Assembly: GCA_020722065.1 (NCBI GenBank)
Contig: DYLK01000004.1
Location: forward strand, 1 to 64,000
Length of the DNA: 64,000 nucleotides
From: Melioribacter roseus
GTDB lineage: Bacteria > Bacteroidota > Ignavibacteria > Ignavibacteriales > Melioribacteraceae
Direction of reading: 5' to 3'
Part shown: piece after piece, positions 28,263-57,417 of the stretch
Position numbering within the stretch: position 1 is the first letter of the stretch
Layout: each line of letters starts with the position of its first letter
The notes under the pieces: model-generated
What the model was told of the DNA's origin: nothing
The model's input: only the letters and a program-made list of their open reading frames with translations
Databases searched by the model: none
Translations under genes and position numbers: made by a program

Positions 28263-30137
28263 TTATTTTTCTCCAAAAAGATTGTTTGCAAGGTTTGATA
28301 AAAATGTAAAAGCATCCATTCCAGAGTAAATAAAATCAGAAATTCCGAGTTTTTTGTAAATCTCTATTTCATTTTTAGGCAAGCCTGCAAGAACGATAAT
28401 TTTATCTGATTGAATTTTGTTTTGTGGATTTTTTATTAATTCTTCATAAAATTTATCTTTTGAAGCCAAAACAACAACTTTTGATTTGGAATTATGGATT
28501 TCGTTGTGAAGTTGCTCGAATGTAAGGATTTTCGATTGTGGGGAATTTACCTCAAAAAAGGCTGTTTCGAACAAAGATTTTGCAAAATCCGAGCGTAACT
28601 TATAATCTGAAATTTCACCAATTCCCAAAATTTGAATTGATTTTTCGATTTGATTTTTGACAAAAATCTGAAGTTGTTCAAAATGAAAACCAGCGTGCGA
28701 AAAATTCAGTTTTTGGACATCTTTTGTTGGAAATTCAAATTTCTTGAAATACACAATCGGAAGTTCTGTAACTGAAAATTCTGAATTATTTTTCACATAA
28801 ACGTTTGTTCCAATCAAGGATAATTTACGGCGATTTATATCATTAATTTTTGCTTTTCGGGAATCGTCAATTTGCTGTTGAATAAAATTTTGTGAAAAAG
28901 CGTTGAAAAATCCACCAAAATTTTCAATTTCTTGGAATACTTTCCAACTTTGTTCAGCAAGCGAGATTGTGTGATTTTCCAGAAAAGATGAACCGCCAGC
29001 AGAATCTATCACTTTGTTTAGATGCGATTCGTGAGTGAGAATAATTTGCGAATTTCGTGCGATTCTGCGGGAAAAATCATTTGGAATTTGCGTTCTGAAA
29101 TTATGTGGATAAATGATAATTCTATCGCATTGTGATAAAATCCCCGCAAAAGATTCGGTGGTAGCACGCAAAATATTTGTAAATTCTTCCGAATTTGTTC
29201 GATAAAACAAGTTAGATTTTCCCCAAATTTGATAATCAAAATGTTGGATTTTATATTGTTCAAGAACTTTTGCCATCAGCATTCTAAAAGCACGAATTTT
29301 GGCAATATCATTCATAAAAAACGGCGAAAGAGAAAATTGAAAAATGATTTTGTTCGATAAATCCGCAACAGAGAAATCATTTTCAAGTAGTTCGAGAATT
29401 TCGACAAATTGTGAAATAGCAAGCGAAAGCTCGTTAATTGCATTTCCGCCAGAATCGGCAAATGTTGAAGAATCAATCAAAATTGTGTTTGAATTTGGGA
29501 AATATCGGCTGACTTTTTCTACGTGATTTGTAAGTAATTGCGATAAATTCATTTTGTTGAGTGGAAAATATCCATTGGCAATAAATTCTAAAAATGGAGA
29601 AACAAGCAAGTTGATTTTCAAAATGTTGGAATTTTTTGAATCAGAAAAGAATTGGAGAAATTCATCAACATAATTTTGGAAAGATAAATTGAAAAGGAGC
29701 GAAATTTCATTTTGAGAAAGATCGATATTCTCAAAAATATGATGAATTTCGTCTTTCGAATAAATTGAAACTGAACGCGTATTTGTGTTAATTTCAGCAA
29801 AAATTGAAGATAATCCCATTTGTAAATCTACTTGCAGATTTTGGTTAAATTGCTTGGGATTTTGTTCAAAGTTTGGTTGAGAAATTGGGAAATCTAAAAA
29901 ATTTGTAGAAAAATGATGGCTTCTTACAAAATTATTTTCAAAGGGTAAAGATAAATTAGCTAATAATTCCTTATTTTCGCTACCAAAGTAAATTGGTTCT
30001 AAAAAAAGATTGTCGTAGGTTTTGGTTTTTAAGGAGTTATAATCTAACCCTTTCAATTCTTCAACTACTTTTGATTTCCAAATTTTATAATTAGTTGGCT
30101 CGAATTCATCCAACTGAAAAGCCTTTCTATCAGACAT
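28263..30137 (-). CDS. mutA: Methylmalonyl-CoA mutase, small subunit
   Basis: The 624-residue protein is the non-catalytic partner of MutB. The barrel part (QLDEFEPTNYKIWKSKVVEEL, DSAGGSSFLENHTISLAEQSW) is recognisable, while the cobalamin-binding motif of the large subunit is missing and the C-terminal part is divergent, as expected for MutA. The ATG at 30137 is chosen because AAGGAAAA precedes it; an upstream GTG eight codons earlier has no such site. It is transcribed divergently from the C25 protease gene. Confidence 0.92.
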   Translation of the reverse strand: MSDRKAFQLDEFEPTNYKIWKSKVVEELKGLDYNSLKTKTYDNLFLEPIYFGSENKELLANLSLPFENNFVRSHHFSTNFLDFPISQPNFEQNPKQFNQNLQVDLQMGLSSIFAEINTNTRSVSIYSKDEIHHIFENIDLSQNEISLLFNLSFQNYVDEFLQFFSDSKNSNILKINLLVSPFLEFIANGYFPLNKMNLSQLLTNHVEKVSRYFPNSNTILIDSSTFADSGGNAINELSLAISQFVEILELLENDFSVADLSNKIIFQFSLSPFFMNDIAKIRAFRMLMAKVLEQYKIQHFDYQIWGKSNLFYRTNSEEFTNILRATTESFAGILSQCDRIIIYPHNFRTQIPNDFSRRIARNSQIILTHESHLNKVIDSAGGSSFLENHTISLAEQSWKVFQEIENFGGFFNAFSQNFIQQQIDDSRKAKINDINRRKLSLIGTNVYVKNNSEFSVTELPIVYFKKFEFPTKDVQKLNFSHAGFHFEQLQIFVKNQIEKSIQILGIGEISDYKLRSDFAKSLFETAFFEVNSPQSKILTFEQLHNEIHNSKSKVVVLASKDKFYEELIKNPQNKIQSDKIIVLAGLPKNEIEIYKKLGISDFIYSGMDAFTFLSNLANNLFGEK

Positions 30138-49865: not shown

Positions 49866-50390
49866 ATGAAATTTGACACAATAAATATTAACCTTTCAAA
49901 TTCAACAGCAAAATCATTAAACTCAAGATTGTTGCCAATAGTTACAAAAAAAGGGAAAGAAACTCAATATTCTTCGTTATCTTCTAACTATTCGAAATAT
50001 TCAAACATTTCGTATTCATTAAATGGGAATAACCTTGTAGATACAGTTGAGATTTCGGAAACAGCTAAATTTTATGCTGAAAAAATTGAACAAACCCACT
50101 TCCAACAAAATTCACCTGCAATTTCAAAACAAAATATCGATAGTCCAATTTTCGAACGATTGAATAAGCAATTTGTTTATGAAAAAGTCAAAAATCGAAA
50201 GATTTCTGATAAGGAAGCGAAAAAATGGTCTGCTGCAAATTATGTTAAAAATTATAAATCTGGATTTAGTATTTCGGGAGTTGAATTTAACGCATCCAAA
50301 GTCGCTCAAACAGAAAATGATAGAATTAGAAACTACTACGAAAAAGAATTTGTTCGAGATCCTGGCACACTTGTAAATATTACTTTATGA
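49866..50390 (+). CDS. Hypothetical protein, 174 residues
   Basis: A soluble Ser/Asn/Lys-rich protein with a disordered-looking N-terminal half, a segment NLVDTVEISETAKFYAEKIEQ (about residues 56-76) and a charged helical half (FERLNKQFVYEKVKNRKISDKEAKKW). The D-x-V-x-I/L-S-x-x-A pattern recalls the short motif of FlgM-type anti-sigma factors and some flagellar-associated small proteins, but the rest does not. No signal peptide or membrane segment. It lies 49 bases before the first kinase gene and may belong to that locus. Function unknown. Confidence 0.6.
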   Translation: MKFDTININLSNSTAKSLNSRLLPIVTKKGKETQYSSLSSNYSKYSNISYSLNGNNLVDTVEISETAKFYAEKIEQTHFQQNSPAISKQNIDSPIFERLNKQFVYEKVKNRKISDKEAKKWSAANYVKNYKSGFSISGVEFNASKVAQTENDRIRNYYEKEFVRDPGTLVNITL

Positions 50391-50439
50391 TATTTACTTT
50401 TATTTGTTTGTATTATTTATAAAAAGGATTTTTGTAAAA

Positions 50440-53235
50440 ATGAGTAAAAGTGAACCGCTAAATAATATCGAAAAACTTATTGAAGAATTGAACAAAGAAA
50501 AAGTCCTAACAAAAAAAGATCTAATAACCGAATTATCCCAGATTAAAGAAAAAATAAGCAAAATCGAAGAAACTGCGGAAGCAAAATATTCAGATATTTT
50601 CAATTCTGTAATAGATGGAATTTTTTATTTTGATTCAAATGGAACAATCCAAGTTGTTAATTCAGCTTTTAGAGATTTAACTGGATTAAGTAATGGAGAA
50701 CTTGAGGGAAATAATCTATTTAGTATAATTTCAAAATATACGGAATTTACAGAGGCAGAAAAACTAAATCAATTTTTTAGAAAAGTACTAACAGAAAATA
50801 TAAATGAAGAAATCCAATTCACTTTTAATGGAAAAGTGTTAAAGGCAAAAGTTTCAAAATCGCAGTCATCAGAAAATTTTACAGCAATAGTTTTTGATAT
50901 TACAGAAAAACTTGCAGATAAAATAAAATTGCAAGAAAGCGAAGCTTACAACAAAATTTTGTTTGAGGATTCTAAAATTCCCTTAGTAGTAATTGATGCC
51001 TCAACTAACAAATTTGTAGATCTCAACGATTCCGCATTACATATTTACGGTTATTCAAACAAAACTGAAGTACTTGGGAAAACACCAGCAGATGTTTCAA
51101 CACCAACACAATATAATGGAGAAATATCAAGATTAGCTGCAGAAAAGCAAATTGAAAAAGCATTAAAATTTGGAGAAATTGTATTTGAATGGCGACATCA
51201 GAACCCAGATGGAAAAATTTGGGATGCTGAAGTAAATTTGATGAAATTTACATTTCGTGGGAAAGAATATCTTCAATTTTCCCTTTTGGATATTACCCAA
51301 AGAAAAATTGCTCATGATTTATTAATTACAAGCGAAGAAAATTACAGACAACTTGTAGAACTTGCACCAGATGCAATAGTTGTACATTCAAATGGGAAAT
51401 TTGTATATGTAAATAATTCGGCAGTTAAAATTATTGGTGCTAATTCAAAAGAAGATTTAATAGGCAAGTCAGTTCTTTCAATTGTGCACCCTGACTCAGT
51501 TCACTTAGCTCGCGAAAGAATAATGAAAATTATGCAAACAGGAGAAGCAGTTGAACTTGTCGAAGAAAAATTGATAAAATTTGACGGAACCAACATTTTT
51601 ACGGAAATTGTTGCAGCTCCATTAATTTATAATGGACAACATTCAATAATCACTATTGTTCGCGATATCACTGAACATAAAAATGCAATAAACAAACTTC
51701 AATCTAGCGAAAAAAAATATCGGGAACTCTCAAATTTAATGAGATTAATGACAGATAATATGCCCGATATGCTTTGGGCAAAAGACCTAAACAAAAACTA
51801 TATTTTTGTAAACAAAGCAGTTTGTGAAAACTTGCTAAATGCAACTGATGTGGAAGAACCAATTGGTAAAAACGATTTATTTTTCGCTCGTCGTGAAAGA
51901 GAATCTCATCCAGAAAATCCAAATTGGCACACATTTGGAGAATTGTGCCAAAATACTGACGATGAAACACTAATTGCTAAAAAGGCACTACAATTTGATG
52001 AATTTGGGAATGTTAAAGGTGAATTCCTATTTCTTGATGTTCACAAATCTCCATTAATTGATGAGAACGGAAATATTATTGGTGTTGTTGGTTCGGCAAG
52101 AGATATTACAGAAAAGCAAAGAATTTATGAAAAATTAACTGAAAATGAAAAACTTTTCCGCTCAATCTCAAATCTAACTTCCGATTATCTTTTCTATACA
52201 AAAGTAGATGAAAACAAAAAACCTCATCTATTTTGGGTTTCGGAGAATTTTAGCAAAATTTCAGGTTATACAATTGAAGAATTTATTCAAATTGGAGGAT
52301 GGCAAAAAACAATTCTTCCAGAAGATTTGCCAATTGATCAAAAAGCTTTTAATGATTTATTGGGAAATAAGTCGGTTGAAGTTGAATTAAGACTAATTCA
52401 CAAAAATGGAAATATAATTTGGGTGAAAAGTTACGGTTCTCCAATTTGGGACGAAAAAAATAGTCGTCTCGAAGGAATTGTTGGCGCTGTTCAAGATATT
52501 ACTGAAAAAAAACATTTCTTAAATCAAATAATAGAAGCCAAAGAAAAAGCAGAAGTGTCTGAGAAAATAAAGACAGAATTTCTGAGTCAAATGTCGCACG
52601 AAATCAGAAGCCCACTTAATGTTGTTTTAAGTTACATATCAATTCTTCAAGAAATATTTGGGGAAAATGCTGACGAAGATGTTCAAAAGGCATTTGCAAG
52701 TATCGATTCAGCAAGCAGAAGAATAATCAGAACAATTGATTTGATTTTGAATATGACAGATTTACAGCTTGGAACTTATGAACCAACTTTCACAAAATTT
52801 GATTATGTAAAAATTCTAAAAGCAATTTTAGGGGAATATCAGCAGAGTGCAAAAGTGAAAAAACTTGATTTAATTTTGGAAATAAATGGGAAAGAAACAG
52901 AAATATATTCTGACGATTATGCATTTCTTCATATAATTACGAATCTTGTAGATAATGCAGTAAAATACACAAAAGAAGGCAGTGTCAAAATCATATCAAC
53001 AAAATTAGAAGATAAATTAAAAATCGAAGTAGTTGACACTGGAATAGGAATGACTGAGGAATTTTTGCCGAGACTTTTCACGGCTTTCACGCAAGAGCAA
53101 CAAGGATATCACAGACATTATGAAGGGAATGGTTTGGGAATGGCTTTGATTAAAAAATATTGCGATTTAATACAAGCAGAAATAAAAGTAGAAAGTAAAA
53201 AAGGTAAAGGAACAAAGTTTACTATTATTTTTTAA
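50440..53235 (+). CDS. Multi-PAS sensor histidine kinase (soluble)
   Basis: The 931-residue kinase has no membrane segment. After a short coiled coil come about five PAS domains (roughly residues 40-150, 160-290, 290-410, 425-560, 560-685), several closing with the DIT(E/Q) signature. HisKA follows with the phospho-His in FLSQMSHEIRSPLNVVLS and a HATPase domain with NLVDNAVKYT, VDTGIGM and GNGLGMALIKK. It is the dimerising kinase of a cytoplasmic signal pathway. Its last 233 residues are identical to those of the second kinase 2.8 kb downstream. No response regulator gene is adjacent. The start is the ATG at 50440. Confidence 0.92.
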   Translation: MSKSEPLNNIEKLIEELNKEKVLTKKDLITELSQIKEKISKIEETAEAKYSDIFNSVIDGIFYFDSNGTIQVVNSAFRDLTGLSNGELEGNNLFSIISKYTEFTEAEKLNQFFRKVLTENINEEIQFTFNGKVLKAKVSKSQSSENFTAIVFDITEKLADKIKLQESEAYNKILFEDSKIPLVVIDASTNKFVDLNDSALHIYGYSNKTEVLGKTPADVSTPTQYNGEISRLAAEKQIEKALKFGEIVFEWRHQNPDGKIWDAEVNLMKFTFRGKEYLQFSLLDITQRKIAHDLLITSEENYRQLVELAPDAIVVHSNGKFVYVNNSAVKIIGANSKEDLIGKSVLSIVHPDSVHLARERIMKIMQTGEAVELVEEKLIKFDGTNIFTEIVAAPLIYNGQHSIITIVRDITEHKNAINKLQSSEKKYRELSNLMRLMTDNMPDMLWAKDLNKNYIFVNKAVCENLLNATDVEEPIGKNDLFFARRERESHPENPNWHTFGELCQNTDDETLIAKKALQFDEFGNVKGEFLFLDVHKSPLIDENGNIIGVVGSARDITEKQRIYEKLTENEKLFRSISNLTSDYLFYTKVDENKKPHLFWVSENFSKISGYTIEEFIQIGGWQKTILPEDLPIDQKAFNDLLGNKSVEVELRLIHKNGNIIWVKSYGSPIWDEKNSRLEGIVGAVQDITEKKHFLNQIIEAKEKAEVSEKIKTEFLSQMSHEIRSPLNVVLSYISILQEIFGENADEDVQKAFASIDSASRRIIRTIDLILNMTDLQLGTYEPTFTKFDYVKILKAILGEYQQSAKVKKLDLILEINGKETEIYSDDYAFLHIITNLVDNAVKYTKEGSVKIISTKLEDKLKIEVVDTGIGMTEEFLPRLFTAFTQEQQGYHRHYEGNGLGMALIKKYCDLIQAEIKVESKKGKGTKFTIIF
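52535..53232 (+). repeat. 698-bp direct repeat, copy 1 (kinase module)
   Basis: This stretch reads base for base like 55293-55990 in every line compared, with a constant offset of 2758. It begins in the linker before HisKA and stops at the last codon before the stop of the first kinase. Flanking bases differ on both sides. Confidence 0.9.
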
Positions 53236-53255
53236 GTTCAATTTGGAGAACTGCT

Positions 53256-54017
53256 ATGAGTAAGAAATTTCTAATTTGGAGTTTGTTTTTAATATTTTTA
53301 ACTTCTTGTAATAACGAAACAAATGTAAAAAAACAAGAAATATTAATTTATTGCGGAATAACAATGGTAAAACCAATAAGCCAAATTGCGCAAATAATAG
53401 AAAAACAAGAAAATTGTAAAGTTACTATTGCCCAAGGTGGTTCTGAAAATTTATACGAAAGTATTGTAAAATCACAAACTGGGGATTTGTATTTACCAGG
53501 TTCAAAATTGTTTTATGATAATCACTTAAAAGAAGGAATTTTACTTGATTATCAAATTGTCGGATTTAATCAATTGGCTTTGATGGTTCAAAAAGGAAAT
53601 CCTAAAAATATAAAATCAGATGTTATGGAATTACTCAATCCAAAATTAAAAACAATTATAGGAAATTATGAAATTGGAAGTGTTGGAAAAGAAACCAAAA
53701 AGCAGCTCAAAAAGATTGGAATTTATGAGAAAGCCTTCCAAAATGCTGTAAAAATTGCTGCAGATTCACGAGATATGAATAAATATCTAATCAAAAAAGA
53801 AGTTGATCTTATTCTAAATTGGAAAGCAACTGGATTTTTTGAAGATACAAGAAATTTTATTGATGTAATTACTCTTCCAGATTCACTTTTTCCGAAAAAG
53901 CCAATATTAATAACAAAAATTAAATATTCAAAAAATCCTAAACTTGCACAAAAATTTGTAGATTTTGCAGTTTCAGAAAAAGGAAAGGCAATTTTCAAAT
54001 ATTATGGATTTCTATAA
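53256..54017 (+). CDS. Solute-binding lipoprotein (ModA/PBP type II-like)
   Basis: The 253-residue protein has a lipoprotein signal (LFLIFLTSCNNE, Cys about 18) and a type II periplasmic-binding fold: ILIYCGITMVKPISQIAQI, VTIAQGGSENLYESI, TGDLYLPGSKLFYD and FNQLALMVQKGNPKNI, close to ModA-like molybdate/tungstate or phosphate-type oxyanion binding proteins. No transporter permease or ATPase is near. The next gene, a membrane kinase, starts two bases after its stop codon, so it is most likely the ligand-binding partner of that kinase rather than part of an uptake system. Confidence 0.85.
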   Translation: MSKKFLIWSLFLIFLTSCNNETNVKKQEILIYCGITMVKPISQIAQIIEKQENCKVTIAQGGSENLYESIVKSQTGDLYLPGSKLFYDNHLKEGILLDYQIVGFNQLALMVQKGNPKNIKSDVMELLNPKLKTIIGNYEIGSVGKETKKQLKKIGIYEKAFQNAVKIAADSRDMNKYLIKKEVDLILNWKATGFFEDTRNFIDVITLPDSLFPKKPILITKIKYSKNPKLAQKFVDFAVSEKGKAIFKYYGFL

Positions 54018-54019
54018 AA

Positions 54020-56017
54020 ATGAACTTTAAGAAATTATCGGTTAATAAATTACTCTTTGCAGTCGGGATATTGATTACGATTGGATTTTCGGCATTATTT
54101 CTTATTGCGATTTATTTTAATAGTAAAACCGAAGATTTATTGAAAAAAATTGAAAATGAACAAGCTCGAAGAAATCTTGGCAGAGTGATTATCGAAAATA
54201 TCGGAGTTATTGAAAAAGAATTTTACAGAATTACATCGAAACCGTATTTTATTAATGATGAAGCGGTTATTCTCGAGACAAAGAACCATTTTAACCAGAT
54301 TAGAAAAGCAGTAAAAATTCTAAAAGATGGTGGTACTTTTGTGCTAACAACTCAGCTAAATCTGGAAGAAACCTCAGAAGTAAAAGAAAATATTAAATAC
54401 GTCCCCCAAAAAGAAAATTTTATTTTAGAATATATAGAACTTAATCCTAAAATTGATGTTTTAGAAAGGAAATTTGTTGAATTAGTTGAACTACACAATA
54501 AATTGAGTAACGCTGAAATAGTACAAAATAAAACCGAAATTACTGAACTATCAAAAGCACTTTATACTTTCTCCAAAATACTTTATTCACATTTTACACG
54601 TTTCCAAGAAGACGCAAACCGAGCTTATTATAACGGAACAAAAAATCTACTAAAACTTGAAAAAGAAGTTTCATTTAGCAAAACACAATATTATCATATT
54701 GAAATGTTTTTGTCCTTTTCAATTGGATTGTTTGTCTTAGTTTTATTTTTACTAATCTCTTATCGAATTCATTTAATAAATAAAAATTTGCAATCCTTAC
54801 AAAATGAAACAAAAAATGCAAAAGATTATTTGTTTATCTTAAATGAAGAACTTAAAAAAGAAATAAATGAGAAAGAACTTGCCAAACAGCAAATTGTTGC
54901 AAATGAAATTAAATATAGAACAGTTGCAGATTGGACTTATAATTGGGAATATTGGGTGAATTTTGAAAATCAAGTTATTTATATGTCGCCATCGGTTGAA
55001 AGAATAACTGGTTTTGCAATTGATGATTTTCAAAATGATAGAGATTTAATTGAAAAAATTATTCATCCAGATGATATTAATAAATGGAATTCTCATAGAA
55101 AAGAATCTCATTTTACAAAAAATGATTGTGGGTTATCTGAAATAGAATTTAGGATATTTCACAAAGATGGAAGAATTATTACAATAAAGCACACTTGTAG
55201 AAATATTTTTGATGAAAAGGGGAATAATCTTGGTCTCCGAGTTTCAAATGTTGATATTACTGAAAACGCACATCTTTTAGAAGAAATTGTAAAAGCCAAA
55301 GAAAAAGCAGAAGTGTCTGAGAAAATAAAGACAGAATTTCTGAGTCAAATGTCGCACGAAATCAGAAGCCCACTTAATGTTGTTTTAAGTTACATATCAA
55401 TTCTTCAAGAAATATTTGGGGAAAATGCTGACGAAGATGTTCAAAAGGCATTTGCAAGTATCGATTCAGCAAGCAGAAGAATAATCAGAACAATTGATTT
55501 GATTTTGAATATGACAGATTTACAGCTTGGAACTTATGAACCAACTTTCACAAAATTTGATTATGTAAAAATTCTAAAAGCAATTTTAGGGGAATATCAG
55601 CAGAGTGCAAAAGTGAAAAAACTTGATTTAATTTTGGAAATAAATGGGAAAGAAACAGAAATATATTCTGACGATTATGCATTTCTTCATATAATTACGA
55701 ATCTTGTAGATAATGCAGTAAAATACACAAAAGAAGGCAGTGTCAAAATCATATCAACAAAATTAGAAGATAAATTAAAAATCGAAGTAGTTGACACTGG
55801 AATAGGAATGACTGAGGAATTTTTGCCGAGACTTTTCACGGCTTTCACGCAAGAGCAACAAGGATATCACAGACATTATGAAGGGAATGGTTTGGGAATG
55901 GCTTTGATTAAAAAATATTGCGATTTAATACAAGCAGAAATAAAAGTAGAAAGTAAAAAAGGTAAAGGAACAAAGTTTACTATTATTTTTAATTCAAAAA
56001 CTGACGTAAAAGCCTAA
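54020..56017 (+). CDS. Membrane sensor histidine kinase paired with a binding protein
   Basis: The 665-residue kinase has TM1 at about 11-32, a helical periplasmic domain (about 33-230), TM2 at about 230-250, a coiled coil, one PAS domain (about 290-415, SPSVERITGFAIDDF, FHKDGRIITIKH, NVDITE), then HisKA (SHEIRSP) and HATPase. The kinase part is identical to that of the upstream kinase down to DNA level, followed here by a short unique tail NSKTDVKA. The tight link to the solute-binding lipoprotein suggests that the loaded binding protein touches the periplasmic domain. Confidence 0.92.
   Translation: MNFKKLSVNKLLFAVGILITIGFSALFLIAIYFNSKTEDLLKKIENEQARRNLGRVIIENIGVIEKEFYRITSKPYFINDEAVILETKNHFNQIRKAVKILKDGGTFVLTTQLNLEETSEVKENIKYVPQKENFILEYIELNPKIDVLERKFVELVELHNKLSNAEIVQNKTEITELSKALYTFSKILYSHFTRFQEDANRAYYNGTKNLLKLEKEVSFSKTQYYHIEMFLSFSIGLFVLVLFLLISYRIHLINKNLQSLQNETKNAKDYLFILNEELKKEINEKELAKQQIVANEIKYRTVADWTYNWEYWVNFENQVIYMSPSVERITGFAIDDFQNDRDLIEKIIHPDDINKWNSHRKESHFTKNDCGLSEIEFRIFHKDGRIITIKHTCRNIFDEKGNNLGLRVSNVDITENAHLLEEIVKAKEKAEVSEKIKTEFLSQMSHEIRSPLNVVLSYISILQEIFGENADEDVQKAFASIDSASRRIIRTIDLILNMTDLQLGTYEPTFTKFDYVKILKAILGEYQQSAKVKKLDLILEINGKETEIYSDDYAFLHIITNLVDNAVKYTKEGSVKIISTKLEDKLKIEVVDTGIGMTEEFLPRLFTAFTQEQQGYHRHYEGNGLGMALIKKYCDLIQAEIKVESKKGKGTKFTIIFNSKTDVKA
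55293..55990 (+). repeat. 698-bp direct repeat, copy 2 (kinase module)
   Basis: Second copy of 52535-53232. Identity breaks at the base before AAGCCAAAG at the left and where the first copy reads its TAA stop and this copy reads AAT at the right. Confidence 0.9.
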
Positions 56018-56115
56018 AAAACTTCCCATTGTGGACAAAATCACAAACTCTCTTTAAACCTACAATTAATTCTCCTTGTCTGAGTAGAAACAAAAATTCT
56101 TAAAAGGAGAAAAAA

Positions 56116-56784
56116 ATGAAAAAAATAACCTCAATAACACTTGTAATCTTATTTGTAATGTTCACTGGTTTTTCGTGTTCTGAAGAAAACACGATTACAA
56201 CGCCGCAAACAACCGACAACTTTCTTGAACCAAACGAAGAATATGCGGATATTGTTGCAAAAACAAATATTCTTGAAGAAGATAGTTTATCTGCAGAAGA
56301 AATTGAAGACCTAATTTTTATGCGTGAAGAAGAAAAATTAGCTCGAGATGTTTATATCAAATTCTTTCAACTTTATTCAATCCGCCCATTTAGTAAAATT
56401 GCACGAAGTGAAGCTTCGCACATGCGAGCAATTTTATTTTTGTTAAATCGATATGGAATTGAAGATCCTGTTGGGGATAATGAAGTTGGAGAATTTACAA
56501 ATCCTGAATTAGCGGAACTTTATACACAATTAATTGCAACTGGCTCACAAAATGAAATAGAAGCGTTAAAAGTTGGCGCAGCAATCGAAGAAATTGATAT
56601 TCTCGATTTAATTGAAGCAATGGAAAATTCTGATAATCCAGATATTGATTTTGTTTATTCAAGATTATTGCGAGCATCGGGCTTTCATTTGAGATCTTTT
56701 GTTTGGAATTTACATGTTCGTGGCGTGGAATATGTTCCGCAATATTTAACAATTGAAGAATTTAATAGAATACTTGGTAGATAA
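56116..56784 (+). CDS. DUF2202 lipoprotein (ferritin-like helical domain)
   Basis: The 222-residue protein has a lipoprotein signal (VILFVMFTGFSCSEEN, Cys about 20) and the DUF2202 domain: EIEDLIFMREEEKLARDVYIKFF, ARSEASHMRAILFLLNRYG and RASGFHLRSFVWNLHVRG. The Glu and His residues spaced as E-E-xx-AxD and SEASHM fit a ferritin-like four-helix bundle that could bind metal, but no activity is known. GGAG precedes the ATG. It lies 98 bases after the second kinase gene. Confidence 0.85.
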   Translation: MKKITSITLVILFVMFTGFSCSEENTITTPQTTDNFLEPNEEYADIVAKTNILEEDSLSAEEIEDLIFMREEEKLARDVYIKFFQLYSIRPFSKIARSEASHMRAILFLLNRYGIEDPVGDNEVGEFTNPELAELYTQLIATGSQNEIEALKVGAAIEEIDILDLIEAMENSDNPDIDFVYSRLLRASGFHLRSFVWNLHVRGVEYVPQYLTIEEFNRILGR

Positions 56785-56812
56785 CCTTAGAAAATAATTC
56801 CCCTCTCTGATA

Positions 56813-56850
56813 AAAAAGCCCAACTTTATCAAATTGTTGGGCTTTTTTAT
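56813..56850. terminator. Bidirectional terminator
   Basis: An A-run plus GCCCAAC, an eleven-base loop and GTTGGGC plus a T-run form a strong stem between the DUF2202 and TerB-like genes, which converge. Confidence 0.9.
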
Positions 56851-56872
56851 TTCTTAAAAAATTTATTGTTTC

Positions 56873-57244
56873 TTATCTTCCTTTGGAGTCGAGAAATTTA
56901 TTAAAATCAATTCCCCAGATCTCACAAACAAAATTTAGTAAATCAAATTCTTCGTCCGTAACTTTCCCGTCTGCTTCGGATAAATCAAGGCAAAAATCTA
57001 AAATGCTCAATTTATTTTCCATTGTTGTCGTTTCATCAAAAAAAATGGCGGCTTCTTCAACTATTCGCAATAATCCTTTTTCGTTTAATGAAATTAAAAA
57101 TTGAAATTCATTTTTTATATCAAATTCACCCTCAAAGTTTGCTTGAAGATATTCTGTAATAATTCTGTCTTCTCGCTCATCTAAATGTCCGTCAGATATT
57201 GCAAATACACAAAGAATATCAAATCCAGCTTGAATTAAATTCAT
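56873..57244 (-). CDS. TerB-like protein
   Basis: The 123-residue helical protein carries two TerB-type acidic helix-turn motifs: FAISDGHLDEREDRIITEYL and DLSEADGKVTDEEFDLLNFV. TerB domains occur in tellurite-resistance and other membrane-stress complexes and in DnaJ-related proteins; they bind divalent metal through these acidic residues. No other ter gene is present, so a stress role is uncertain. It is transcribed divergently from the methyltransferase gene. Confidence 0.75.
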   Translation of the reverse strand: MNLIQAGFDILCVFAISDGHLDEREDRIITEYLQANFEGEFDIKNEFQFLISLNEKGLLRIVEEAAIFFDETTTMENKLSILDFCLDLSEADGKVTDEEFDLLNFVCEIWGIDFNKFLDSKGR

Positions 57245-57417
57245 TTAATCTCCTATTTTTTGATGAAAATTAGATAAAGAATCTTTTTATTTTACTACTT
57301 TTTAAAAGACAATTTACAAAACAAAATTTTTTGAATAATGTGATACAACTCACACATTAACATTTTAGCTAAATTATCGAAACATTTTATAATAATAAAT
57401 TATCAAGAAAATAAAAT

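Follow-up and report, generated by a model that had tools for sequence, protein, structure and literature searches.

The 64,000-nucleotide stretch of Melioribacter roseus DNA analysed here (the window) carries, on its forward strand, two neighbouring histidine kinase genes with the gene for a substrate-binding protein between them. The first kinase, HK1 (50404-53235, 943 aa), is predicted to be cytoplasmic: hydropathy analysis detects no membrane segment in it, and Pfam assigns five PAS stretches (PAS_9) followed by HisKA and HATPase_c. Its open reading frame is listed with a TTG start, the ATG at 50440 being possible too. The second, HK2 (54020-56017, 665 aa), is a predicted membrane kinase with transmembrane segments at about residues 8-35 and 224-255, a periplasmic domain, PAS_3, HisKA and HATPase_c. 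The periplasmic domain is predicted to be mostly helical, a single-sequence structural model is entirely helical at low confidence (pLDDT 60), and the HK2 sensor domain matches no Pfam family. In both proteins HisKA and HATPase_c score above the Pfam cut-offs, and both translations contain SHEIRSP, NLVDNA, DTGIGM and GNGLGM; with a phospho-acceptor His plus N, G1 and G2 motifs, HK1 and HK2 are thus HisKA-type histidine kinases by sequence.

The intervening gene (53256-54017) encodes a predicted ModA-like lipoprotein of 253 aa (PF13531) with the lipobox LTSC, which we call SBP. Against the ModA model TIGR01256 it scores 58.7 bits, under the curated cut-off of 62.5, and the genome encodes no ModB above its own cut-off, so that a role in sensing rather than transport is plausible for SBP next to HK2. 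In the TorT-TorS and LuxP-LuxQ systems a periplasmic binding protein is likewise encoded beside a membrane kinase with a periplasmic domain. The arrangement of SBP and HK2 resembles these as far as sequence can tell, but SBP is a ModA-like lipoprotein and the HK2 sensor lacks a Pfam family. Directly upstream of HK1 lies a 174-aa open reading frame (p174, 49866-50390), which has no Pfam match and is kept in the sister species G003 (82%). The gaps between p174, HK1, SBP and HK2 are 13, 20 and 2 bp, and no terminator was found between these genes; the four are therefore probably co-transcribed. A promoter scan of the locus gave hits at chance level.

The two kinases share their C-terminal modules to the last base. 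An exact match of 52535-53232 and 55293-55990 had been claimed in a first-pass annotation of this DNA, and base-by-base comparison confirms it, with 698 of 698 bases equal at an offset of 2758. Each copy starts within the AKEKAE linker motif and spans the complete HisKA and HATPase_c core, in HK1 and HK2 respectively, and the repeat ends at the HK1 stop codon. Its boundaries are sharp: the flanking bases differ, exact identity extends no further on either side, only 31 of the 50 bp just upstream are identical between the copies, and upstream of the linker identity between HK1 and HK2 falls to background. At this length, chance identity is excluded. A repeat search returned this pair as the sole direct repeat of at least 100 bp within the window, and the pair is also the only one of its kind found in the 2.38-Mb genome. 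With no further copy in the genome, a mobile or repetitive element as the source of the repeat is ruled out. Among the 32 HisKA domains found in this genome we detected no other recent conversion of the module: the next-best DNA matches reach 72% over 220 bp and 70% over 198 bp, and the remaining matches over long stretches do not exceed 72%.

Because the assembly is a draft in 69 contigs, we considered whether the identity might be an artefact, produced either by merging differing copies into one consensus or by duplicating the repeat along a wrong graph path. Short-read assemblers are known to be prone to collapsing close paralogues or strain bubbles. Both copies, however, are flanked on each side by unique, coding-consistent sequence, and the order unique-repeat-middle-repeat-unique is the only path that uses all parts. 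Two in-frame genes, both intact and with unlike C termini, are not what a false duplication should yield, and a collapse would merely turn 'nearly identical' into 'identical'. We regard an assembly artefact as quite improbable.

The first-pass annotation had described the sensor parts of the two kinases as unrelated, which does not hold entirely: the last PAS domain of HK1 is homologous to the PAS domain of HK2 (about 29% aa identity), and the linker from DITE to AKEKAE measures 20 aa in both proteins. Together, the homologous PAS domains and the equal linker length indicate that the exchange joined diverged homologous genes at a homologous point, as gene conversion needs. Against 29% aa identity in the PAS domain, 0 differences in 698 bases with sharp tract ends exceed what the age of the paralogues would lead one to expect. 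As the likeness is restricted to the tail, a tandem duplication of the whole gene is ruled out. At the downstream border, a T run near the stop is one T shorter in HK2 than in the HK1 stop region (...ATTTTTTAAG vs ...ATTTTTAATT); one T fewer shifts the frame, and HK2 consequently extends eight residues past the HK1 stop (NSKTDVKA, 55991-56017, outside the repeat).

The copy is very recent. Its timing can be judged from G003, which is syntenic on both sides of the locus (about 92% over aligned segments) and for which 17 syntenic genes give a median dS of about 0.24 and a median nucleotide identity of about 93.5%, corresponding to a divergence of about 6.5% per base. Had the two copies been separate since the split from G003, about 45 differences would be expected between them; none is seen, including none at about 140 synonymous sites. 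If the 95% limit is set at three events that went unseen, the age of the copies is below about 7-9% of that of the G003 split. The proposal that silent-site identity reflects a recent copy or conversion is thereby borne out. In the same comparison, window 28263-30137 diverges from G003 faster than neighbouring genes (dS 0.57, dN 0.10).

None of the relatives preserves the locus as it was before the event; G003 itself cannot show it, since it lacks the counterpart of window 51419-57334 and its HK1 is a truncated, frameshifted remnant (L057 4861-5885, G003:C85). The missing segment takes with it SBP, HK2 and the DUF2202 and TerB-like genes. Comparison with relatives, suggested earlier as a means of finding a deletion, thus did reveal a loss of the region, but with a different junction (window 51419 joined to 57334), which rules out recombination between the copies as its cause. 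Such recombination, predicted to delete the binding protein and to join the first sensor to the second kinase tail in frame, is nevertheless a sound formal possibility in M. roseus: the 2758-bp deletion would remove SBP together with the HK2 sensor and leave an open frame of 951 codons.

To which of the two kinases the shared core originally belonged can be judged from its relatives. In the family, the nearest relatives of the tail (55-60% aa identity) sit on long PAS-rich kinases of G002, G004, G015, G022, G058, G059 and G060, and a further one, in G061, on a shorter protein. In a tail tree, the window tail falls into a clade of ten with the tails of G002, G004, G015, G022 and G058-G061 (support 94/95), its innermost placement being weakly supported (84/43). 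Most of these tail relatives are long multi-PAS proteins, and their PAS domains share 38-47% identity with the last PAS of HK1, against 27-32% or no match with the PAS of HK2. Across 164 genomes of the order, the HK2 sensor (aa 1-275) has a single relative over its full length, a kinase of G059 at 26% identity, and a search of 391 genomes of the class for HK2-type sensors gave weak partial matches only. The tail of the G059 kinase is 42% identical to the window tail and belongs to a different clade (98/93). Grouping it with the window tail was rejected by the AU test (p-AU 0.003), as was grouping it with the clade of that tail (0.004); tree and test rest on an alignment of 234 columns, and the clade for the test was picked once the HK2-type relative was known, a relative recognized from its sensor and not from its tail.

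Gene order points the same way. On contig C264 of G060, uvrA is followed by an SBP gene (45% identical) and by the opening stretch (about 40 residues) of a kinase similar to the G059 protein, the kinase start overlapping the SBP stop by about 4 bp, and in G059 the HK2-type kinase follows the same uvrA. The pairing of SBP with a membrane kinase (window 53256-56017 and G060 C264) is therefore a conserved neighbourhood. In the genus g19, the pair of binding protein and HK2-type kinase is present without HK1; within the genus of M. roseus itself, none of the four other genomes has HK2 or SBP. Judging from the uvrA neighbourhoods in G059 and G060, SBP and HK2 probably form an older unit of two genes that does not depend on HK1, and the HK1 core in HK2 is then the likely newcomer. 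With one complete HK2-type relative carrying a different core, replacement of an older HK2 core is probable; that this earlier core differed is judged from a single distant protein, that of G059 at 26%. The most likely direction is thus from HK1 to HK2, which would make HK1 the tail donor and HK2 the recipient. The opposite course, in which the HK2 core was copied over that of HK1, is compatible with the identity itself, which is directionless, and with the weak innermost branch of the tail tree, but most tail relatives are multi-PAS kinases, and in G059 the HK2-type kinase carries a core of a different type, which was rejected as sister. We hold it to be very improbable.

On the basis of these results, we consider it probable that the HK1 core recently recombined over a paralogous core in HK2, and that two inputs were probably merged onto one output. 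In the proposed history, the five-PAS kinase HK1 would be the long-standing owner of the core, and a two-gene cassette of SBP and HK2, the latter originally with a different, paralogous HisKA-HATPase core, would have come to lie directly downstream of it. Very recently, RecA-type recombination between the co-oriented neighbours, whether by gene conversion or through a double exchange of equal effect, would have overwritten HK2 from the conserved AKEKAE motif of the linker to the gene end; we infer that gene conversion was the mechanism. A different origin is conceivable for HK2, namely chimeric birth, in which an HK2-type sensor arriving with SBP was fused to a fresh duplicate of the HK1 core, for example where HK1 had been duplicated in tandem and the cassette recombined into the second of the two copies, so that no local HK2 core was ever overwritten. 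Such a fusion predicts the same identity, tract limits and recency, and the absence of HK2 and SBP from the four other genomes of the genus would allow the cassette to be a recent arrival in this species. It requires, however, that within a short time the cassette was imported and an in-frame exchange fell exactly at the same linker motif. Moreover, the 2-bp gap between SBP and HK2 is much like the overlap of the G060 pair, and this tightness indicates that HK2 was probably complete when the cassette arrived. Overall, chimeric birth seems unlikely to us.

Related events were sought at about 19 loci with neighbouring kinases, which were chosen from listed high-scoring matches, are not a random sample and yield no rate. 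Tails of neighbouring kinases were 48-72% identical there, with two exceptions. In G027, two multi-domain kinases (1275 and 2018 codons) whose sensors differ lie about 9 kb apart, and their likeness is confined to the same linker-to-stop segment as in HK1 and HK2 (L175 3734-4432 and 13421-14113, G027:C3). These tails share 86% nucleotide and 91% aa identity, with a dS of 0.71 and a longest exact run of 59 bp; third-position identity varies by segment, with 48% at the ends and 96% in the middle, a mosaic that fits a partial conversion. Like HK1 and HK2, the G027 proteins are neighbouring kinases with unlike sensors and similarity in the segment from the linker to the C terminus, but their 86% mosaic identity suggests an older or partial event. 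In the second exception, G034, an entire REC-HisKA-HATPase gene is duplicated in tandem at about 87-88% (L198 3359-4619 and 4859-6123, G034:C18), so that it is not a tail-only case. This duplicate adjoins a protein with near-identical repeated PAS-like units. L198 7922-10000 encodes a long protein whose near-identical units, each about 107 aa, stand in tandem. Pairs that scored equally in the searches, G077 among them, proved not to be near-identical. It is a doubtful generalization, offered tentatively, that neighbouring kinases of the Melioribacteraceae-like lineage repeatedly homogenise their cores from the AKEKAE linker to the stop by conversion; if true, repeated homogenisation would keep sensors of different origin on one output, a form of concerted evolution that builds many-to-one signalling.

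Joining a kinase core to a different input is a known mode of histidine kinase evolution, and a survey of domain shuffling and local duplication judged direct shuffling between proteins to be rare, favouring domain loss followed by gain (PMC4603909). The present locus likewise combines a kinase core with a new input, but its probable donor and recipient adjoin with zero divergence, so that the exchange would be caught directly. In Ehrlichia ruminantium, ntrX undergoes intragenomic gene conversion by a nearby partial duplicate (PMC9937504). Both there and here a nearby partial duplicate would convert a two-component gene; in the ntrX case, however, an inverted partial copy inactivates the regulator, whereas here a direct, co-oriented copy accompanies two intact kinases with different sensors. 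Apart from a remark and the ntrX case, our literature search found nothing on conversion between histidine kinase cores.

From what is established on two-component specificity, it follows that kinases with identical DHp and CA domains present the same docking surface to response regulators, and a shared output of HK1 and HK2 is a fair inference from their identical surfaces. The genome contains 36 receiver-domain matches, none of them encoded adjacent to HK1 or HK2. It is plausible, as anticipated in the first-pass annotation, that the two kinases share one response regulator, which would probably be unlinked, and that they form mixed dimers, depending on their differing PAS and sensor parts. 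HK1 would sense cues in the cytoplasm with its PAS domains, and HK2 would sense a periplasmic ligand by way of SBP. New kinase inputs are usually deduced from old, diverged paralogues, whereas here the probable donor and recipient stand side by side with no mutation since. Their junction marks the exact place of a natural cut, within the PAS-DHp linker and with the coiled-coil length kept. The pair is thus a natural sensor swap, suited to asking whether identical DHp domains pair across different sensors and whether two different sensors can both act through one identical core and a single regulator. For M. roseus, it would mean that two signals now probably feed one output pathway.
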